The translations under genes and the position numbers were made by a program. Shown piece by piece: positions 2,045 to 22,906 of a stretch of DNA of 64,000 bases. Each line of letters begins with the position of its first letter. Positions within the stretch are counted from its first letter, which is position 1. The notes below the pieces were generated by a model. The model was not told where the DNA came from, did no database searches, and was given only the letters and a program-made list of their open reading frames with translations. This DNA comes from Planococcus lenghuensis (GTDB lineage Bacteria > Bacillota > Bacilli > Bacillales_A > Planococcaceae). The DNA is taken from the NCBI RefSeq assembly GCF_001999905.1, contig NZ_CP019640.1, forward strand, positions 3,266,001 to 3,330,000. Reading direction: 5' to 3'.

Positions 2045-2220
2045 CCCGCCTCTCATCTTCTGGAAAAGTTTCTTTCCAGTGGAATTAGCACCGTGCCTTG
2101 CGGAATGGATTTGTCCATTCCGGCGCAAAATCTTAACGCGCCCCGTTTCACAACGGTATTATGGTCGGTTGCTGGGCTTCATCGGGCCATTTTACCCTCC
2201 GCCTGCTCTTGATAAGAGTG
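2045..2220 (-). ncRNA. SAM-I (S-box) riboswitch upstream of mtnK
   Basis: Read on the minus strand, the S-box landmarks appear in order: CTCTTATCAAGAG with the kink-turn AGCAGGCGGAGGG, CGATGAAGCCCAGCAACC, GGTGCTAATTCC and AGATGAGAGG. The distance between GCAACC and GGTGCTAA is 74 nt (2093-2166), against 13 nt in the second S-box of this window, so the P3 arm is greatly expanded and holds three predicted hairpins. A leader terminator follows at 1997-2030. Binding of S-adenosylmethionine is expected to favour termination and shut off mtnKA. Confidence 0.93.
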
Positions 2221-2644: not shown

Positions 2645-2753
2645 ATTCTTATTCAGAGCAGGCGGAGGGACAAGCCCTACGAAGCCCGGCAACCGGTCGA
2701 TTGACACGGTGCTAATTCTTGCAGCCTTCAAGCGACGGCTGACAAATAAGAAG
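2645..2753 (+). ncRNA. SAM-I (S-box) riboswitch upstream of mtnW
   Basis: P1 is formed by TTCTTATT near 2646 and AATAAGAA near 2745. Between them lie AGAGCAGGCGGAGGG, ACGAAGCCCGGCAACC and GGTGCTAATTC, the S-box core, with a short P3 of normal size. A terminator follows at 2766-2795. It should repress the mtnWXBD operon when S-adenosylmethionine is plentiful. Confidence 0.95.
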
Positions 2754-15170: not shown

Positions 15171-16076
15171 TCATTCATCTTGTTCCTTCATTTGTTCGCG
15201 GATCCCGCCTGAAACGCCGGTTCCTTCCGCCATCGGTTCATGCAATGCCCCCGACGTCGGACCGGCAGGCGGTGCCTGCTGGATGAGTTTCTGCACATAT
15301 TTGGCATTGAGAGTTTCCGTCGATTTCGGCAGGAATTTATGTGAAAGGACCGTACCTGACACTTTCGTTTCCACATCGACGCTTTTCTGCGGCTTATCGA
15401 TGAGTCCAATCAGAACCTCGACCACGACTTCCGGTCCGTCCATCGGTTTCAGCTGTGCCCGGTGGCCGGTGTAATTGCCGGTATGGATGAACCAGGGAGT
15501 GTCCGTCGCCCAAGGATGCAGCGTGCATACATGGATATCGCCATAGCCTTCAAGCGCAATTTCCTCATGCAGCGCTTCTGTCAGTCCGGTCACTGCAAAT
15601 TTCGTCGCGCTGTATGGCATATAGTACGGAAACGGAATCCGGCTGGCGATCGATCCGGTATTGATCAGCGTCCCGTACCCCTGTTCCTTGAACTGGCGCA
15701 AGGCGAAATGGCTGCCGATCACCATGCCGAAGACGTTGATTTCGACGACCCGCCGCATATCTTCTGCCGGCACTTCCGTGTAAGGCCCGATCAGTCCGAT
15801 CGCCGCGTTGTTGATCCACACATCGATCTTGCCGAATTTGTCCATCGCCGTCCGGTACAGCCGCTCCACATCTTCTTCCTTACTGACATCCGCTGTCACA
15901 GCTGTTGCATTCGGACCCAATTCGGCCGCCATGTCTTCAATCACTTCCGTCCGGCGGGCTGCGAATATTACGCTGGCCCCTTCTTTTATCAGCTGTTCTG
16001 TCACGCCCCGTCCGATGCCGCTCGAGGCCCCGGCGATGACGACGGTCAGCCCGTCGCGCGATTTTGTCTCTGCCAT
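15171..16076 (-). CDS. Short-chain dehydrogenase/reductase (copy 1 of 3)
   Basis: NAD(P)-dependent oxidoreductase with a Rossmann fold, 301 residues; substrate unknown. The cofactor loop GASSGIGRG is at residues 16-24, NNAAIG near 90, the catalytic Ser in NTGSIASR near 140 and Tyr-x-x-x-Lys in YSATKFA near 155. After the usual SDR core a 50-residue tail ends in SGALHEPMAEGTGVSGG, a pattern shared with the next two upstream genes. GGGAGG precedes the ATG. It is the last gene of a same-direction set of three paralogues separated by 15-16 bp. Confidence 0.9.
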   Translation of the reverse strand: MAETKSRDGLTVVIAGASSGIGRGVTEQLIKEGASVIFAARRTEVIEDMAAELGPNATAVTADVSKEEDVERLYRTAMDKFGKIDVWINNAAIGLIGPYTEVPAEDMRRVVEINVFGMVIGSHFALRQFKEQGYGTLINTGSIASRIPFPYYMPYSATKFAVTGLTEALHEEIALEGYGDIHVCTLHPWATDTPWFIHTGNYTGHRAQLKPMDGPEVVVEVLIGLIDKPQKSVDVETKVSGTVLSHKFLPKSTETLNAKYVQKLIQQAPPAGPTSGALHEPMAEGTGVSGGIREQMKEQDE

Positions 16077-16091
16077 TCTGTTCCCTCCCGT

Positions 16092-17012
16092 CTAGTCATC
16101 CTTCTTCCCTGCATCTTCTTTCCGTCTCCTGTCCCGGTTGCCGCCGGAAACGTCCACACCTTCCGGAATCGCTTCGTGAAGGCTGCCCGCTGTATTTTCT
16201 GCGGGCGGTGCCGCCTGAAGCAATTCCCACAGAATCAGGCCGGTCATCCTGTCGGTGAATCCCGGCACCACATTGTGGCCTGCCACCACGGCTTTCGATT
16301 TGATGCCGACTTCCACGCTTTCCGCCGGTTCACCGATCAGGCCGATCACCGTATCAATGACGATTTCCGGATCATCCATTGGCCACACATCGATCTGATG
16401 GCCGGTGTAATTGCCGGCATGCGTTGTCCACGGCGTATCTGTGACCCACGGGTGTACCGAACTGATATGAATATCATCATAGCCTTCCGCTTCCATTTCC
16501 TGATGAAGCCCGGCTGTCAGTCCTGCAATTCCGCGTTTCGTCGCGCTATAGACGGCACCGAACGGCATCGGCACTTTGCTAATGAATGAAGACATATTGA
16601 TGAGCGTGCCGTGCCGGGTCTCCTTAAAGTGGCGAAGCGCACAGCGGCTGCCGATCATCATGCCGAACAAATTCGTCTCCACCATGCGGAGTTGATCACG
16701 CAGCGGGATTTCAGTGAATGAGCCAAGTGCTCCGAGCCCCGCATTATTGATCCACACATCCAGCCGGCCAAACGCGGACAGCGCTGTTTCAGTTAATCGG
16801 CTCATGTCTTCTTCCTTGCTGACATCCGTCGTTACTGCAATAGCGTTCGGACCGATTTCCTGCGCCATCCCCTCGATCAAATACGTTCTGCGCGCTGCCA
16901 GTACGACATTCGCGCCTTCTTCCGCCAGCCGCAGAGCAATCCCTTTTCCGAATCCGCTCGATGCGCCGGTGATGACCACCGTCAGCCCTTCTCTGGATCT
17001 CCTGTTTGACAC
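16092..17012 (-). CDS. Short-chain dehydrogenase/reductase (copy 2 of 3)
   Basis: Middle member of the three tandem paralogous SDR genes; about 306 residues. It has GASSGFGKG near residue 15, NNAGLG near 88, the catalytic NMSSFISK near 138 and Tyr-x-x-x-Lys in YSATKRG near 153. The tail ends AGSLHEAIPEGVDVSGG followed by a very basic end (RDRRRKEDAGKKDD). The GTG at 17012 is preceded by GGAGG; a longer frame to 17105 would run deep into the upstream gene and is rejected. Substrate unknown; co-transcription with the neighbours is likely. Confidence 0.88.
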   Translation of the reverse strand: MSNRRSREGLTVVITGASSGFGKGIALRLAEEGANVVLAARRTYLIEGMAQEIGPNAIAVTTDVSKEEDMSRLTETALSAFGRLDVWINNAGLGALGSFTEIPLRDQLRMVETNLFGMMIGSRCALRHFKETRHGTLINMSSFISKVPMPFGAVYSATKRGIAGLTAGLHQEMEAEGYDDIHISSVHPWVTDTPWTTHAGNYTGHQIDVWPMDDPEIVIDTVIGLIGEPAESVEVGIKSKAVVAGHNVVPGFTDRMTGLILWELLQAAPPAENTAGSLHEAIPEGVDVSGGNRDRRRKEDAGKKDD

Positions 17013-17028
17013 AAGAACGCCTCCGTTC

Positions 17029-17940
17029 CTATTCTTCCCGCTGCTCCCGTTCCATCCGCTCCCGGTTGCCGCCGGAGACACCCGTCCCTTCTGCAACCGG
17101 TTCATGGAGATTGCCGGATGTATGTGGTGCCGGCGGTGCGCCTTCTTCCATCTGCAGCATGCTTTTTCCGGTGAGTTTCGATGTCAGGTTCGCCAGCAGG
17201 TCTCCGCCTGTAGCCGCCCCTTTCACTTTTACCCCGATTTCCACGCTTTCTTCCGGATCGTCGATCAGACCGATAATGGCATCGATCACTGTCTCCGGAT
17301 CATCCATCGGCTTCAGGCTGATTTCATGGCCGGTATAATTTCCGGCATGCACCGTCCACGGCGTGTCGGTCACCCACGGATGGACCATGCAGACGTGGAT
17401 GTCCTTCCAGTCCTCCAACGCCATTTCCTGATACAGTCCAGCCGTCAGTCCTGCAATGGCCTGCTTTGATCCGGTATAGGCGGCAGCGAACGGCGTCGTC
17501 ACTTTGCTGGAAAAAGAAGCAATATTGATCAACGTGCCATGCCCTTGTTCTTTGAATTGCCGCAGGGCCAGCCGGCTGCCGTACATTTCACCGAGCAAAT
17601 TTGTCTCGATCGTGCGGAGATGGTCGCGCAGCGGCGCTTCCGTAAACGAACCGAATACGCCCGTTCCGGCATTATTGATCCACACATCAATCTTTCCAAA
17701 AGCTTTCATTGTCTCGTTGAATAAGTTTTCCATGTCTTCTTCTCTGCTGACGTCTGTCGTCACGGCAATGGCATTCGTCCCAAGCCGGTTAGCCAGTTTC
17801 GAAATCACATCCGTCCGGCGGGCAGCGAGAGTAACGTTCGCTCCCTGTGCCGCCAGCCGTTCCGCAGTGCCTCTGCCGATTCCGCTTGATACGCCGGTGA
17901 TGACGACCGTTAGCCCTTCCCGAATACCCTGTTCTTCCAT
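17029..17940 (-). CDS. Short-chain dehydrogenase/reductase (copy 3 of 3)
   Basis: First gene of the tandem SDR set, 303 residues. It shows GVSSGIGRG near residue 17, NNAGTG near 90, the Ser of NIASFSSK near 140 and Tyr-x-x-x-Lys in YTGSKQA near 155, so all catalytic residues are kept. The tail has SGNLHEPVAEGTGVSGG followed by charged residues, as in the other two copies. The ATG at 17940 has GGGGGA upstream; an ATG six codons earlier lacks a site. The substrate is unknown. Confidence 0.88.
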   Translation of the reverse strand: MEEQGIREGLTVVITGVSSGIGRGTAERLAAQGANVTLAARRTDVISKLANRLGTNAIAVTTDVSREEDMENLFNETMKAFGKIDVWINNAGTGVFGSFTEAPLRDHLRTIETNLLGEMYGSRLALRQFKEQGHGTLINIASFSSKVTTPFAAAYTGSKQAIAGLTAGLYQEMALEDWKDIHVCMVHPWVTDTPWTVHAGNYTGHEISLKPMDDPETVIDAIIGLIDDPEESVEIGVKVKGAATGGDLLANLTSKLTGKSMLQMEEGAPPAPHTSGNLHEPVAEGTGVSGGNRERMEREQREE

Positions 17941-18061
17941 AAACGTACCGTCCCCCATCGTTTTGACGTTATCTTTCTGTACCCCTTGTTTTCAGGAGAT
18001 AACCCGGTAACCAGAAAACCCGCTGACCTTCAAATGGGATCGGCGGGTTTTCTATATGTAT

Positions 18062-18361
18062 CTACACTGGCATCATTTTCCGGCTCCAGCTTTTCAGCAC
18101 AGCTTGTTCCTTTCCGGGGTCAAGCCCCGCTTTTCGTTCCGTCTCCGTCCGGGCCGATTCCCAGGTTAGTGTGTCCCACATTATTTCACGGAGCGGTTGG
18201 AATGTCAGCCCTTCATTTGTCGCCCGCTGACCTCCATCGGCAGGAAGCTGGATTTCCTCATCCACCCACGTGTACATGCTCGCTGCTCCGCCAGCTGCCT
18301 GACACGTATTCCAGAATTTCCCCATTATCAAAACTTCAGCGGGGCTGGTCGCGTCGAATGT
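18062..18361 (-). pseudogene. Remnant of an NAD-dependent epimerase/dehydratase
   Basis: On the minus strand a frame of about 100 codons reads GTFDATSPAEVLIMGKFW, then YTWVDEE, GLTFQPLREIMWDTLTWE and a tail KAGLDPGKEQAVLKSW. These are the C-terminal blocks of NAD-dependent epimerase/dehydratases of about 330 residues. The Rossmann half is absent and an in-frame TAG lies just upstream of 18361, so this is a 5'-truncated fragment. It is the only coding-like sequence directly downstream of the T-box leader at 18434-18708. Confidence 0.7.
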
Positions 18362-18433
18362 GCCCGATACTTGCTATTTCTATAGGCTGTTTAGGAAAGC
18401 TCCGTGCTTCTCCCGGCATTCATTATTCTACCA

Positions 18434-18708
18434 AAATAAAAAAAACACACGAGCCCTTTTGTAAAAAGGACAAGTGTGTTTGATCTCGTGGTTCCATTCA
18501 GCTTTCCGTCTCCCGCTGATTGCAGCATGGGACGGCTCTGTACTCAGCATTAACGCAGCTGCCGCGGCACTGATTACTCATTATTCACCAGCGCTGCTCG
18601 AAGGAGGTATATTTTCCGGCTCAGTTAGGAAGCTTGCACCGTCGCTTTCCCTCTCTGGGAACCGGCCTGGAAAACACTTGTCCTTGTCATCGCATTTAAT
18701 ATTATCTT
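18434..18708 (-). ncRNA. T-box riboswitch, orphaned
   Basis: On the minus strand the T-box landmarks are in order: Stem I base AAGGACAAGTG, the AG bulge AGAGAG, GGTGCAAG, a specifier-loop strand GAAAATATACC, the T-box TGGAACCACG (18487-18496), and a terminator hairpin (acacacttgtcc / gggctcgtgtgt) followed by TTTTTTTT near 18440. The codon in the specifier position by the pattern GAA-NN-NNN-ACC is UAU, pointing to tRNA-Tyr; this reading is tentative. A strong promoter precedes it. No intact gene follows within the next 370 bp, only the epimerase fragment at 18062-18361. Confidence 0.85.
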
Positions 18709-18714
18709 GAAATT

Positions 18715-18743
18715 AATATATAAGACGATAACAGTTTCGTCAA
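18715..18743 (-). promoter_or_regulatory. Sigma-A promoter of the T-box leader
   Basis: Minus-strand TTGACG (complement 18738-18743), 17-bp spacer, TATATT (complement 18715-18720). It starts 11 bp after the GNAT gene stop codon. Confidence 0.8.
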
Positions 18744-18753
18744 CAGTTTTTGT

Positions 18754-19257
18754 TCATATCTCCAGAATATATTGAAAAAATGTGACAGATTTCTCCTGCT
18801 GTCTCACGTTTTCTTCCTGTCTGTTCATTTGTCGAAATCCATTATTCTCCAATACCTTTTGAGAAGCGAAATTGGTTGATGTCGTTTTAGCCTTGATGCG
18901 CTTGATGCCCGGTTCCTTCGCCAACAGCGATCGCACAGCATTCCGGCCGATTCCTTTTCCTGTGAAATTCTCGCCGATCCGGAAGCCGAGTTCCGCTTCC
19001 TGAATCGCCGGATCAATATCGATCAGATTGATGCGGCCGACGAGCTGTCCATCACTGGACCAGATCAGGTAAAAACGGGAAAGTCCTTGCGCTTGCTCAG
19101 CCAATAGCTCCTCATGTCTGACTTTGAAGACGGCCGGATCATAATAGGCCTCGCCCCGGCTTGGCACCGACTGTTCGAAAAGTGACCGGTTCCGGCGCTC
19201 GAAGTCCAGCAACGTCCCGGCGTCTTGTTCTTCCAGCAGCTTAATGACGATATCCAT
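18754..19257 (-). CDS. GNAT family N-acetyltransferase (RimJ/RimL-like)
   Basis: Acetyl-CoA dependent N-acyltransferase of 167 residues, with the pattern of ribosomal-protein or small-molecule acetyltransferases. The acetyl-CoA loop is GENFTGKGIGRNAV near residue 95, preceded by the strand AELGFRIG, and NFASQKVLENNGFRQ near 128 is the conserved C-terminal block. GAGGTGAGG precedes the ATG. It begins four bases after the stop of the second GNAT gene and is the last gene of a three-gene operon. The substrate is unknown. Confidence 0.85.
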   Translation of the reverse strand: MDIVIKLLEEQDAGTLLDFERRNRSLFEQSVPSRGEAYYDPAVFKVRHEELLAEQAQGLSRFYLIWSSDGQLVGRINLIDIDPAIQEAELGFRIGENFTGKGIGRNAVRSLLAKEPGIKRIKAKTTSTNFASQKVLENNGFRQMNRQEENVRQQEKSVTFFQYILEI

Positions 19258-19261
19258 ATCC

Positions 19262-19804
19262 TCACCTCAATCTTCCCATGACGACTGTATTATAAAATTT
19301 GCCATCCGACAGGGTTTTGTCGTTGACCAACACACCTTCTGCTTGAAACCCCAGTTCCTCATATAAGCGGATGGCCGGTTCGTTGGTTTCCAATACATTC
19401 AAAGTCAGCTTTGCAAGTCCGCTTTCGTCAGCCCATTTGATGGATTCACTCAAAAGATTCTTCCCAATGCCATTACCCCAGTAGGCTTTCAAGACGCCGA
19501 TTCCAAACTCCGCTTTATGTGCAAACCGCTTCAGTTCATTTCCTTCACAGCGTGAGAACCCGACAATCCGGCCATCTGCGATAGCCACCAGGAACAAGTT
19601 CCGATCACTCTCTGTGTCCGATCGGATCAATTGTTCGAATCCCGATGCATCGATGAATCCTTCCCCCGGTTCCCGGTCCAGGTTTTCCGTCTCGCTGTCC
19701 ATCTGGAGCCGGAGCTGAGACAGTTCCGCTGCATCTTCCTGTCGGGCAGAGCGGATGAGATAAGGGAGTCCGTTTCTGCAGAATCGTTGTTCGGCTACTT
19801 TCAT
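19262..19804 (-). CDS. GNAT family N-acetyltransferase
   Basis: Acetyltransferase of 180 residues. The strand AEFGIGVLKAYWGNGIGKNLL near residue 105 (in two blocks) holds the acetyl-CoA pyrophosphate loop, and LNVLETNEPAIRLYEELGFQ near 140 is the conserved family end. The ATG overlaps the stop of the upstream kinase-like gene by four bases, so translation is coupled. It differs clearly from the following GNAT protein, so the pair is not a recent duplication. Substrate unknown. Confidence 0.87.
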   Translation of the reverse strand: MKVAEQRFCRNGLPYLIRSARQEDAAELSQLRLQMDSETENLDREPGEGFIDASGFEQLIRSDTESDRNLFLVAIADGRIVGFSRCEGNELKRFAHKAEFGIGVLKAYWGNGIGKNLLSESIKWADESGLAKLTLNVLETNEPAIRLYEELGFQAEGVLVNDKTLSDGKFYNTVVMGRLR

Positions 19805-20874
19805 CCCTTATTCAGCTCCAATTGTGCGATTCTCTTCCAAGCCTTCACAAAACTTTCGGCCATCAGTTCCGCTTCCATGTGCTGCGACCCGACCTGTTCG
19901 AGAAAATATGAACTTTGATACGCATACTTGATTGGCGCAACGGCTGCCATATAATCGAACATCGTGATCAACCGGTCGTTTCGCACGTTGGGATCAAGTG
20001 CCAGCAGGTAAGCGTCCCGAAGCTGTAGCTGTGCAGCCGACCATTGGATTTTATGCTTATGGCCGCTGTAGCTGTTCTCGAATTCCGCTGCTTCGTCCAG
20101 CAGCTTCTCCAGTGAAAATAACGGACAGCTGATCACCGCTTCCTCGAAATCAAAGACGATGACTTCCCCGCCTTTAGTACGAATAGCGTTATTGCTGTGC
20201 AGATCCAAGTGGTCGATGGAATACGGAAGCGAAAACCCGTCCAGCTGACCGCATAATTCAGCCATGGCTGACGCCATCCGATCGAGAATACCGGCATCGC
20301 AGATCGCCAGCAAGTCCTCTTTTCCATCCAGATTGTTTTTAATCAGCTGCTCCTGCTGCGCCGTCCATTGCGGCCGATAGACATTCTTGGCATGTTCGAC
20401 AAAAACCGGCAGCTGCACAGCGAGATGCCGCAATGAATAATAGGGAATGGCATGTTCATTGGCAATCGGCGTAAACTGTTTCTGAAGGTCAGCCATCTGC
20501 TTGGCTATATCGATTAATGCATTCAAATTCGCTTCCTCACGGATAAGATGGCCGGAAAATTTTTCAAACAGAAGCCAAGTCAATCCGTCTTCTGTCTTCC
20601 CATTGATATATACAGGCACCGCCCCGGAGTTCAGCTGGGACAATGCCGTATAGATCGCCGGAGATGACTGAAAGATCGGCAGAAATGCAATCTTACAGAC
20701 CACTTCCTGCACGGAATGCCCGTTATATACATGAAATGACGCAGTAATGCCCCAGTCATTCGACCTAAAAATTGTAATCGGCCCTTCCACTTTCCTTGAA
20801 TCAGGAATGGAAGAAGCAATCCACTCCCTAACATCTTCCAATCGCACACGGTCATTCCATTTTAACTCAGCCAT
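19801..20874 (-). CDS. Aminoglycoside phosphotransferase-like kinase
   Basis: Protein-kinase-like small-molecule kinase of 357 residues. The catalytic loop IDHLDLHSNNAIR near residue 225 (Brenner-type His-x-Asp-x-x-x-x-Asn) and the metal-binding VIVFDFEEA near 240 are intact; VVCKIAF near 60 may provide the ATP-binding Lys. A long helical C-terminal part follows. The natural substrate could be an antibiotic, a sugar or a choline-like compound; the sequence does not decide. GGAGGGG precedes the ATG. First gene of an operon with two acetyltransferases. Confidence 0.8.
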   Translation of the reverse strand: MAELKWNDRVRLEDVREWIASSIPDSRKVEGPITIFRSNDWGITASFHVYNGHSVQEVVCKIAFLPIFQSSPAIYTALSQLNSGAVPVYINGKTEDGLTWLLFEKFSGHLIREEANLNALIDIAKQMADLQKQFTPIANEHAIPYYSLRHLAVQLPVFVEHAKNVYRPQWTAQQEQLIKNNLDGKEDLLAICDAGILDRMASAMAELCGQLDGFSLPYSIDHLDLHSNNAIRTKGGEVIVFDFEEAVISCPLFSLEKLLDEAAEFENSYSGHKHKIQWSAAQLQLRDAYLLALDPNVRNDRLITMFDYMAAVAPIKYAYQSSYFLEQVGSQHMEAELMAESFVKAWKRIAQLELNKG

Positions 20875-21017
20875 CGAAACCCCTCCAAAAGAACTAGTGC
20901 TCCCGGCGCCAGTTTTTCTTCTGATTCAATTTTACTGCAAACAGAAAAACTGTACAATTGCTTCTTTAAAGAAGCAGTAGGATGAGTCAGACGCTGAGTC
21001 CGTGAAATTCTCTCCAG

Positions 21018-21045
21018 CAAAAAAACTCCTGCAAATGCAGGAGCT
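21018..21045 (-). terminator. Terminator of the coiled-coil protein gene
   Basis: Minus-strand stem ctcctgca / tgcaggag followed by TTTTTTT. Confidence 0.9.
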
Positions 21046-21102
21046 CAGTCATCGGCAGAAGGGGCAGCTGTCTATTAGTCCGTCTGCTTTAGTCGTTGAT
21101 TA

Positions 21103-22542
21103 TCAGTTGCCTTCATCTTCATCTTCGTCCTCGTCTTCTTTTTCTTTTTCTTTCTCTTTTTCTTTCTCAGCAGCTTCCCGTTCTTTTTCTGCCGCTTTTT
21201 CAGCAGCTTCCCGTTCTTTTTCTGCTGCTTTTTCAGCAGCTTCCCGCTCTTTTTCTGCTGCTTTTTCAGCAGCTTCCCGCTCTTTTTCGGCTGCTTCCCG
21301 TTCTTTTTCAGCTGCTTTTCGTTCTTTTTCGGCCGCTTTCTCAGCAGCTTCCCGTTCTTTTTCTGCTGCTTTTTCGGCTGCTTTGCGTTCCTGTTCAGCC
21401 GCTTTTTCGGCTGCTTTGCGTTCCTGTTCAGCCACTTTTTCTACTGCTTTCTGTTCTTTTTCGGCTGCTTTTTCTACTGCTTTCTGTTCTTTTTCAGCCG
21501 CTTTCTCGCTTGCCTTTACTTCTTTTTCTTTTTGTTTTTCTTCTTTGGCTACAGCCTCTTGCACATCGTCAGCTCCATCGTCCTCAGATTCCAGCTCCTC
21601 AGATTCCGGTTCCTCCGACTCCGCCTCTTCGTGCTCTTCTTCATCTTCCAGAGCTTCCTCTGTGACTTCATCCGCTTCTTCATTAATTTCTTCCATAAGC
21701 TCTTCCTGCTCTTCTGCCAGCTCTTTTTCAAGTTCAGCAAGCTCAGCCTGGTACTCTTCTTCCGAAATTTCACCTGCCGCAAGCAACGCATCAAGCTCAG
21801 CCCGTTTTTCTGCGGCTTTTTCTTGCTTCTCTGTAATATCCGTCAGTTTTTCAGTAATTTTTTCTTCCCATTTCGCTTGCGCTTTTTCAATGTTTTTCTG
21901 CAGTGCTTCCCTTGCTTTCGGATTCTCGATCTGCTCCAGCGCTGCTGTCAGCGCCAGGATATTGGCAGCGAACTTCTCTTCCAATTCTGCCCGGAACCCG
22001 TCTATAGTATCCGCTTCACCTGAAGGTTCTTCCGTCACGGATTCCTCGTCAGGTTCAGTCTCATCCTCAGCTTCCGATTCTGCACTCTGCTCGTATTTCT
22101 CCAGTGCCGCCTCCTGCTGTTCGATGGCTTCCTGAAGAACTTCATTCGCCCGCTCCTCGTCCCCTTGGTCAAGGAGCGCCAGAGCTTCCGAAATGCGTTC
22201 TTCCGCAAATCCAGCCAGCAGCTCGGCCTCTTTCACTCCATCGAACGTCAGGGCCAACTGCACATTTTCCATCAGGTTTTTTACGAAGTAGAAGAAGTCA
22301 CCCGGCAGAAGCGAAGGGTCTTCAGCAGCCGTTTCATCTTCTTCCACTGCTGGTTCTTCTGTCTCCTGCTCTGGTTCTTCTTCAATAAGCACTTCTTCCG
22401 TTTCCGTTGTTTCAGGTTCCACCGGCTGTTCGTGCTGATCTGCTTGAATCGGACTTGCCCCGACTGTAAACGTGAGTGCTGTCGTAATAATACCGGTTGC
22501 TAACACGTTGCGGACCTTAAGATTGATCACGGGTTTTGACAT
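21103..22542 (-). CDS. Acidic secreted DUF5667 protein with long EKAAEKE coiled-coil tail
   Basis: Secreted, very acidic protein of about 479 residues. A signal peptide covers residues 1-34 (hydrophobic VLATGIITTALTFTVGA, then ADQHEQ). After a Glu-rich linker, the segment starting DPSLLPGDFFYFVKNLMEN near 75 and running to about 155 matches DUF5667. Further helices follow, and residues 330-479 are almost pure Glu/Lys/Ala repeats with 11-residue units such as EKAAEKEREAA, ending in an EKEKEKEDEDEDEDEGN tail. No transmembrane anchor or sorting motif is seen at the end. GGAGGA precedes the ATG; the longer frame is trimmed. A probable c-di-GMP-I riboswitch precedes it. Confidence 0.8.
   Translation of the reverse strand: MSKPVINLKVRNVLATGIITTALTFTVGASPIQADQHEQPVEPETTETEEVLIEEEPEQETEEPAVEEDETAAEDPSLLPGDFFYFVKNLMENVQLALTFDGVKEAELLAGFAEERISEALALLDQGDEERANEVLQEAIEQQEAALEKYEQSAESEAEDETEPDEESVTEEPSGEADTIDGFRAELEEKFAANILALTAALEQIENPKAREALQKNIEKAQAKWEEKITEKLTDITEKQEKAAEKRAELDALLAAGEISEEEYQAELAELEKELAEEQEELMEEINEEADEVTEEALEDEEEHEEAESEEPESEELESEDDGADDVQEAVAKEEKQKEKEVKASEKAAEKEQKAVEKAAEKEQKAVEKVAEQERKAAEKAAEQERKAAEKAAEKEREAAEKAAEKERKAAEKEREAAEKEREAAEKAAEKEREAAEKAAEKEREAAEKAAEKEREAAEKEKEKEKEKEDEDEDEDEGN
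21170..21530 (-). repeat. Intragenic tandem repeats coding EKAAEKEREAA
   Basis: Degenerate direct repeats of mostly 33 bp (11 codons, with 21- to 24-bp shortened units) run through the 3' part of the DUF5667 gene. Neighbouring units are nearly identical at DNA level, which suggests unequal crossing-over or slippage. Confidence 0.85.
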
Positions 22543-22617
22543 TTTTCCATTCCTCCAAAACAGTATTTTTGGTTCGGAGAATGTCGACATAACCCGTGTT
22601 CCCACAGGCTATTCTCC

Positions 22618-22735
22618 ATTCTTCAGCGGTTCAGCCGCCCTAGTGACGCGCACCGTAGGCCTGGAACTTTGCGTATCCACCTTTCGATGGAGCTGCCTTT
22701 TTCAAATGAGAAGCGCTGGAAGCTATTCGGTTTCC
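22618..22735 (-). ncRNA. Probable cyclic di-GMP-I riboswitch
   Basis: On the minus strand CATCGAAAGGTGGATACGCAAAG is followed by CCAGGCCTA, CTAGGG and CGGCTGAACCGC. This order matches the GEMM-I aptamer: GAAA tetraloop stem, ACGCAAAG joining segment, a CCTA/TAGG P3 stem and the closing GGTTACC-like tail. Below it a hairpin (GGAGAAT / ATTCTCC) and then CCAAAA / TTTTGG directly before the ribosome binding site may form the expression platform. Assigned by pattern, not by covariance model. Confidence 0.65.
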
Positions 22736-22872
22736 GACTTCTTTATGTAAATATACCCTACATATAAGCCAAAAGATACATTTTTTTAATGGATAAAAAC
22801 TAATTTTCCCGCCTTTGTTTCCACAATGAAAGTTAAGCATTTTGTGTTTAAAATCGGCGAATCGAAGACATC

Positions 22873-22906
22873 AAAAAAACCGCTCACCCTACCAGGGAGC
22901 GGGCAC
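22873..22906 (-). terminator. Terminator of the siderophore uptake operon
   Basis: Minus-strand stem ccgctc-cct / agg-gtgagcgg followed by TTTTTTT, just after the FhuF-like gene. Confidence 0.85.

Follow-up and report, generated by a model that had tools for sequence, protein, structure and literature searches.

A probable relic of a tandem thrZ-type T-box leader that has lost its ThrRS gene in Planococcus lenghuensis

Introduction

Why does a full T-box leader with a promoter of its own stand in front of nothing that it could regulate? The question is raised by the minus strand at 18743-18434 of a 64,000-nucleotide stretch of the Planococcus lenghuensis genome (“the window,” i.e., the whole stretch of DNA analyzed), where promoter, leader and terminator follow each other (Table 1). 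As an earlier note on this DNA had observed, no intact gene lies directly downstream, only a 5′-truncated epimerase fragment. Here we argue that the site is very probably what remains of a tandem T-box leader whose gene, a second threonyl-tRNA synthetase (ThrRS) gene of the thrZ type, was lost by deletion. The mechanism involved is an ordinary one, a spare ThrRS gene controlled by T-box attenuation, and the site would be a fossil of this well-known switch. The name thrZ comes from B. subtilis, where the gene has tandem T-boxes.

Table 1. Features of the orphan leader and its surroundings, with positions in the window.
Feature	Position	Strand	Basis
Promoter TTGACG-N17-TATATT	18715..18743	-	10/12 consensus matches; hexamers at the same leader distance in L157-L159
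T-box 1	18463..18699	-	RF00230 match, 78.0 bits, E 2.7e-17, model 1-219 (full length)
AGAGAG, Stem I motif (AG bulge)	18656-18651	-	Sequence
GGTGCAAG, Stem I distal loop motif	18640-18633	-	Sequence
Specifier ACC (threonine)	18606..18608	-	Alignment to 53 ThrRS leaders
Closing stem CCUU	18604-18601	-	Alignment to ThrRS leaders
Antiterminator helix A1, 5′ strand GAA (GGG in 53/53 relatives)	18497..18499	-	Alignment, folding
T-box sequence TGGAACCACG	18487..18496	-	Sequence and alignment; UGGA fits U73 of tRNA-Thr(GGU)
Terminator hairpin and T-run	18442..18481	-	Sequence; folding energy
Antiterminator helix A1, 3′ strand CCU (CCC in relatives)	18467..18469	-	Alignment, folding
5′ remnant of second tandem thrZ-type T-box	18370..18428	-	Alignment score vs. 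shuffles and background
Deletion junction (inferred)	18365..18369	-	Where the two similarities stop
3′ remnant of epimerase-like gene, ~100 codons, ~23 lost internally	18062..18364	-	Protein comparison

Architecture of the Leader

T-box 1 is a genuine T-box leader. The Stem I motifs, T-box and terminator occur in the order that the earlier note had given, and the covariance-model check that it proposed yielded a significant match to RF00230 in a search space of 501 bases, with the Stem I motifs, the Stem IIA/B positions, the T-box bulge and the terminator all kept. Because its 78.0 bits lie below the Rfam gathering score of 93 for this family, the leader is absent from a scan of the window at gathering thresholds, which returned only two SAM riboswitches and one c-di-GMP-I riboswitch. 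The former (2050-2218, minus strand; 2646-2752, plus strand) diverge on opposite strands about 430 bases apart; the latter (22622-22707, minus strand; 58.9 bits) immediately precedes a frame of 500 aa (21103-22605) that contains long repeats of the AEKEREAAEKA type.

In the complete genome (labeled G000) 18 T-box matches were found at E ≤ 0.001, eight of which, the orphan leader included, score below 93. The other 17 precede genes that we take, from their translated downstream frames and not from family searches, to be trpS, leuS, serS, valS, argS, trpE, ileS, cysE, hisS, a proC-like gene, pheS, a trpD-like gene, thrS, tyrS, alaS (which stands some way downstream of its T-box), ilvB and glyS. 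The orphan is the only one of the 18 that has no intact gene of such a kind behind it.

The promoter, too, is present as first described. Taken alone, this match is weak, as five promoter-like sites occur in that kilobase vs. 1.4 expected and a second one likewise agrees with the consensus at 10 of 12 positions. The call becomes more credible because three related leaders (L157-L159) carry TTGACA-N17-TATATT at the identical distance before their first T-box.

Specifier and tRNA Identity

The earlier note read the specifier, by pattern, as UAU, which suggested tRNA-Tyr. In favor of that reading, the UAU triplet does stand immediately 5′ of ACC, and the specifier loop is shifted to a wrong place in the Rfam alignment. 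However, many of the 53 ThrRS leaders contain the block UUACC-N-CCUU-NGAGCAG, with which UAUACC-U-CCUU-CGAGCAGCG of the orphan aligns, so that the specifier is ACC, where ThrRS leaders have theirs; the closing stem CCUU pairs with AAGG. Several relatives carry ACU at this position (the simple motif used did not match every leader).

The discriminator base points in the same direction. Among the 8 of 30 fetched tRNA loci that were examined, ARAGORN identified tRNA-Thr(GGU) with U73, tRNA-Thr(UGU) with A73 and tRNA-Tyr(GUA) with A73, and of these three the UGGA bulge of the orphan fits tRNA-Thr(GGU) only; it cannot pair with A73 of tRNA-Tyr, and tyrS possesses a separate T-box with a UGGU bulge. 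The same discriminator test is applied in TBDB, where UAU makes up 1% of the tyrosine specifiers and ACC 60% of the threonine specifiers (PMC7778990). The tree with the g8 leaders (see below) also contradicts a tyrosine T-box. That reading has next to no probability and was rejected; by alignment and discriminator base, the specifier is ACC, for threonine. Since the GGU isoacceptor carries U73 and the UGU isoacceptor A73, ACC and UGGA together would select the former. The two differ as well in that tRNA-Thr(GGU) has no encoded CCA and tRNA-Thr(UGU) has one (L124:1024-1097, L125:1421-1496). Specifier calls from alignment columns or from a local pattern can thus err by a few bases and are settled by a look at the host tRNA's discriminator base.

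Phylogenetic Origin of the Leader

DNA matches to the orphan leader (E ≤ 0.01) were found in 24 of 151 family genomes, and the nine best non-self matches come from the tandem T-boxes of G006, G024, and G041, three members of genus g6, where these T-boxes precede a ThrRS gene (for G024 by coordinates). Each of 40 stretches upstream of ThrRS genes held a T-box, and the resulting 41 T-boxes, ten tandem copies, the G001 leader, the organism's own thrS leader and the orphan formed a set of 54 leaders. In the tree of this set the orphan falls in the clade of second-ThrRS (thrZ-type) leaders (100%), next to the tandem copies of g6 (100%). When the tree was split by segment, Stem I placed the orphan with g6 (92%) and the platform placed it within the thrZ type (93%), nearest to G017 (87%); the middle segment joined g6, but with the orphan paired with the divergent G163_a (96%).

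Among 261 genomes, g8 is the sole other genus with a close homologue (E ≤ 1e-80) of the SDR genes downstream of the locus. Three g8 genomes (G217, G220, and G224) have a second ThrRS behind two tandem T-boxes, recognized by motif, and with these six copies added to the tree the orphan becomes sister to the g8 second copies (96%), within a group (95%) that takes in the first copies as well. Its identity is 64.6-65.6% to these copies, 64.4-65.6% to the tandem thrZ-type leaders measured as a whole and 51.6% to the organism's own thrS leader. Judging from these comparisons, the orphan is a thrZ-type leader by descent, i.e., one of the kind found 5′ of second ThrRS genes. A recent duplication of the organism's own thrS leader was rejected because the thrS-type leaders form another clade.

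With the tandem leaders of g8 and g6 the orphan shares ACC (in the copies compared), UGGA, the tandem layout, an AACACAC..GTGTGTTTT terminator and, for g8, the promoter position; unlike them, it has no synthetase gene, a shortened second copy and a first copy that has lost helix A1. The organism's own thrS T-box (L013, G000:C1:1331061) likewise combines an ACC specifier with UGGA but is of the thrS type, with antiterminator and gene intact. From the RF00230 family at large the orphan is set apart by the lack of helix A1 and of a regulated gene. ThrRS genes are described as the only synthetase genes of the Bacillota with two or three tandem T-boxes (PMC12452182).

How special is the site? The pattern TACYNCCTTNGAGCAG gave 126 matches in 118 of the 261 family genomes, and 76 of the 79 matches compared lie 386-1004 bases upstream of a ThrRS gene on the same strand. 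The remaining three are the orphan site and two matches (G026:C3, G005:C10) that were rejected as further orphan leaders because they fall within protein-coding frames. Other orphan leaders may exist, since the pattern misses many leaders and 79 of the 126 matches were compared. In the literature searched, which mostly excluded subscription papers, we found no orphaned or degenerate T-box leader or vestigial riboswitch, and nothing on the thrZ tandem T-box.

The survey of ThrRS loci also yielded some observations in their own right. One or two copies of Bacillaceae-1 RNA (RF01690) occur between the Thr T-box and the ThrRS gene in relatives (L084, L086, L087, L042 (with a putative ThrRS gene), L043, and L045), and none was reported in the organism's own thrS locus L013. 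In genus g5, second ThrRS-like frames of 404-437 aa (G005:C13, G023:C16, G040:C43, and G067:C56) match the profile only from about position 162 on and thus represent a shortened paralogue. In one other genome (G031:C1:3542258-3543924, minus strand) the second ThrRS is split over two frames, an apparent decay of a spare ThrRS.

Probable Loss of the Downstream Gene

Directly 3′ of the orphan terminator, before the epimerase remnant, lies a stretch that had been overlooked in the first reading. It can be aligned to the 5′-terminal 60 bases of T-box 2 in the tandem leaders of G217 and G224 (score 45) and of G220 (score 41). In each comparison the best of 2000 dinucleotide shuffles scored 32 (0/2000 as good), and the maximum in 3800 windows without thr leaders was 34; a background that reached 45 had included L162, which contains the very G217 leader compared. 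This remnant occupies the position that the second T-box has in G217 and G224. From 18364 on, the sequence resembles an epimerase-like gene in its 3′ portion (GTFDATSPAEV); this 5′-truncated fragment also lacks about 23 internal residues vs. the nine relatives compared. The fragment was matched in 15 other genomes of 151, in 12 of which the open frame is 324-364 aa, and Pfam and NCBIfam gave no match in it. Because both similarities end there, the break is confined to some five bases.

The genome contains a single ThrRS gene at E ≤ 1e-60 (G000:C1:1331623-1333320), behind the thrS T-box, and a tblastn search of the window with the ThrZ proteins of two relatives revealed no trace of the reading frame (best E 0.33, away from the site). 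The synteny comparison suggested in the earlier note to see which gene had followed the leader gave a partial answer: in relatives thrZ-type leaders precede a second ThrRS, but the sister species G001, the one other genome of the genus in the set compared, is without leader and block and has its neighboring genes reordered. The neighbors of thrZ differ in the two g8 loci examined (G217, G224), and thrZ and the epimerase gene in the order expected before the loss were found in no genome. Since that order was not encountered and G001 has no such block, the deletion is something that we infer; it would have removed all of T-box 2 but its 5′ end, together with thrZ, whatever lay in between and the 5′ portion of the epimerase gene, presumably in a single event, so that what is left of T-box 2 now abuts what is left of the epimerase gene. 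The first guess that the regulated gene was deleted and its leader left behind is, with the thrZ-type descent, the T-box 2 remnant and the one remaining ThrRS, probably right.

A mobile origin was rejected: the leader had no phage match, and for the region 17950-22900 the one match was to 58 bases of an E. coli plasmid. A scan of named genomes with the upstream GNAT protein returned two weak Chloroflexi matches only. On the other side of the epimerase remnant, three tandem SDR paralogues (15171-17958, minus strand) are found, an arrangement shared by G001 and several g8 genomes; in the former, genes that we presume to be macro-domain-like and LysE-like lie on the other side of the SDR cluster.

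Antiterminator Decay and Remaining Function

In the intact relatives, uncharged tRNA-Thr(GGU) would pair with the leader twice, at ACC through its anticodon and at UGGA through its 3′ UCCA end, stabilizing the antiterminator and allowing transcription into the synthetase gene. Among the 53 other leaders, 82 columns show a conservation of 90% or more, and the orphan keeps 73 of them. The antiterminator marks the divide: before it, 48 of 50 are kept, and from its start onward 25 of 32, with three of the seven misses in the 3′ arm of the terminator, in which the alignment is uncertain. This overall count proves no decay, because two leaders with thrS still behind them do no better (G004_S 72/84, G001_S 76/85). 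The antiterminator is different. Helix A1, GGG/CCC in all 53 other leaders, is GAA/CCU in the orphan and forms no pair, vs. three (26 leaders) or five (27 leaders) in the others, and with the first four bulge bases held unpaired the antiterminator energy is -1.7 kcal/mol vs. a median of -8.3 (range -9.8 to -4.6). Helix A2 is intact (five pairs), and the terminator energy of -18.4 kcal/mol lies within the range of the others (-31.5 to -12.9). Of what makes up a working T-box, the orphan thus has the model match, Stem I and specifier, the UGGN-discriminator pairing and a competing terminator, but neither an antiterminator with both A1 and A2 nor a regulated gene downstream.

The key to the ON state is that the 3′ end of the tRNA stacks on helix A1 (PMC7583486), and because A1 is lost the leader is predicted to be always terminated. 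The site is therefore best read as a decaying leader that would terminate whatever the charging of the tRNA, and the description of it as still functional is probably wrong. That the T-box still switches and governs read-through into the SDR genes, which begin at 17958 and are the next genes on the same strand some 480 bases further, is highly improbable: specifier, bulge and helix A2 are intact, but A1 is predicted not to form, and G001 and g8 genomes, which do not have the orphan leader, have conserved SDR genes all the same.

A broken antiterminator beside a terminator of normal energy would also suit a relic kept only as terminator for the upstream kinase/GNAT genes (20874 to 18754). Two terminator-like sites occur on the minus strand in 17900-18900, and the hairpin, which lies 3′ of the GNAT stop codon, is one of them. 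Such a function needs neither a promoter of its own nor a conserved Stem I, and we consider it unlikely as the sole reason for the relic, although it can be true alongside the loss of a thrZ-type gene.

The better conservation upstream of the antiterminator, together with the intact promoter and terminator, raises a further alternative, of a kind that the earlier note had also considered: the leader may live on as a free RNA, ~265 bases long and always terminated, whose Stem I binds tRNA-Thr(GGU) as a sponge or sensor. Selection would then have kept Stem I, specifier, promoter and terminator after the loss of synthetase and antiterminator, turning a cis switch into a trans-acting tRNA-Thr(GGU)-binding RNA, a scenario that strikes us as very unlikely. 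Recent gene loss accounts for the conservation pattern equally well, the leader was found in one genome only, and the adjoining 5′ part of T-box 2 is clearly decaying.

Implications

We thus return to the relic of a thrZ-type tandem leader, presumably transcribed and probably without a new role, in which T-box 1 retains promoter, Stem I, specifier, bulge and terminator, and in which the loss of helix A1 would make transcripts stop at the terminator. The locus would represent a tRNA-sensing leader caught after the loss of its gene, the switch broken and the sensing arm and terminator remaining. If it is expressed and binds tRNA-Thr, it would offer a natural test of T-box action in trans.
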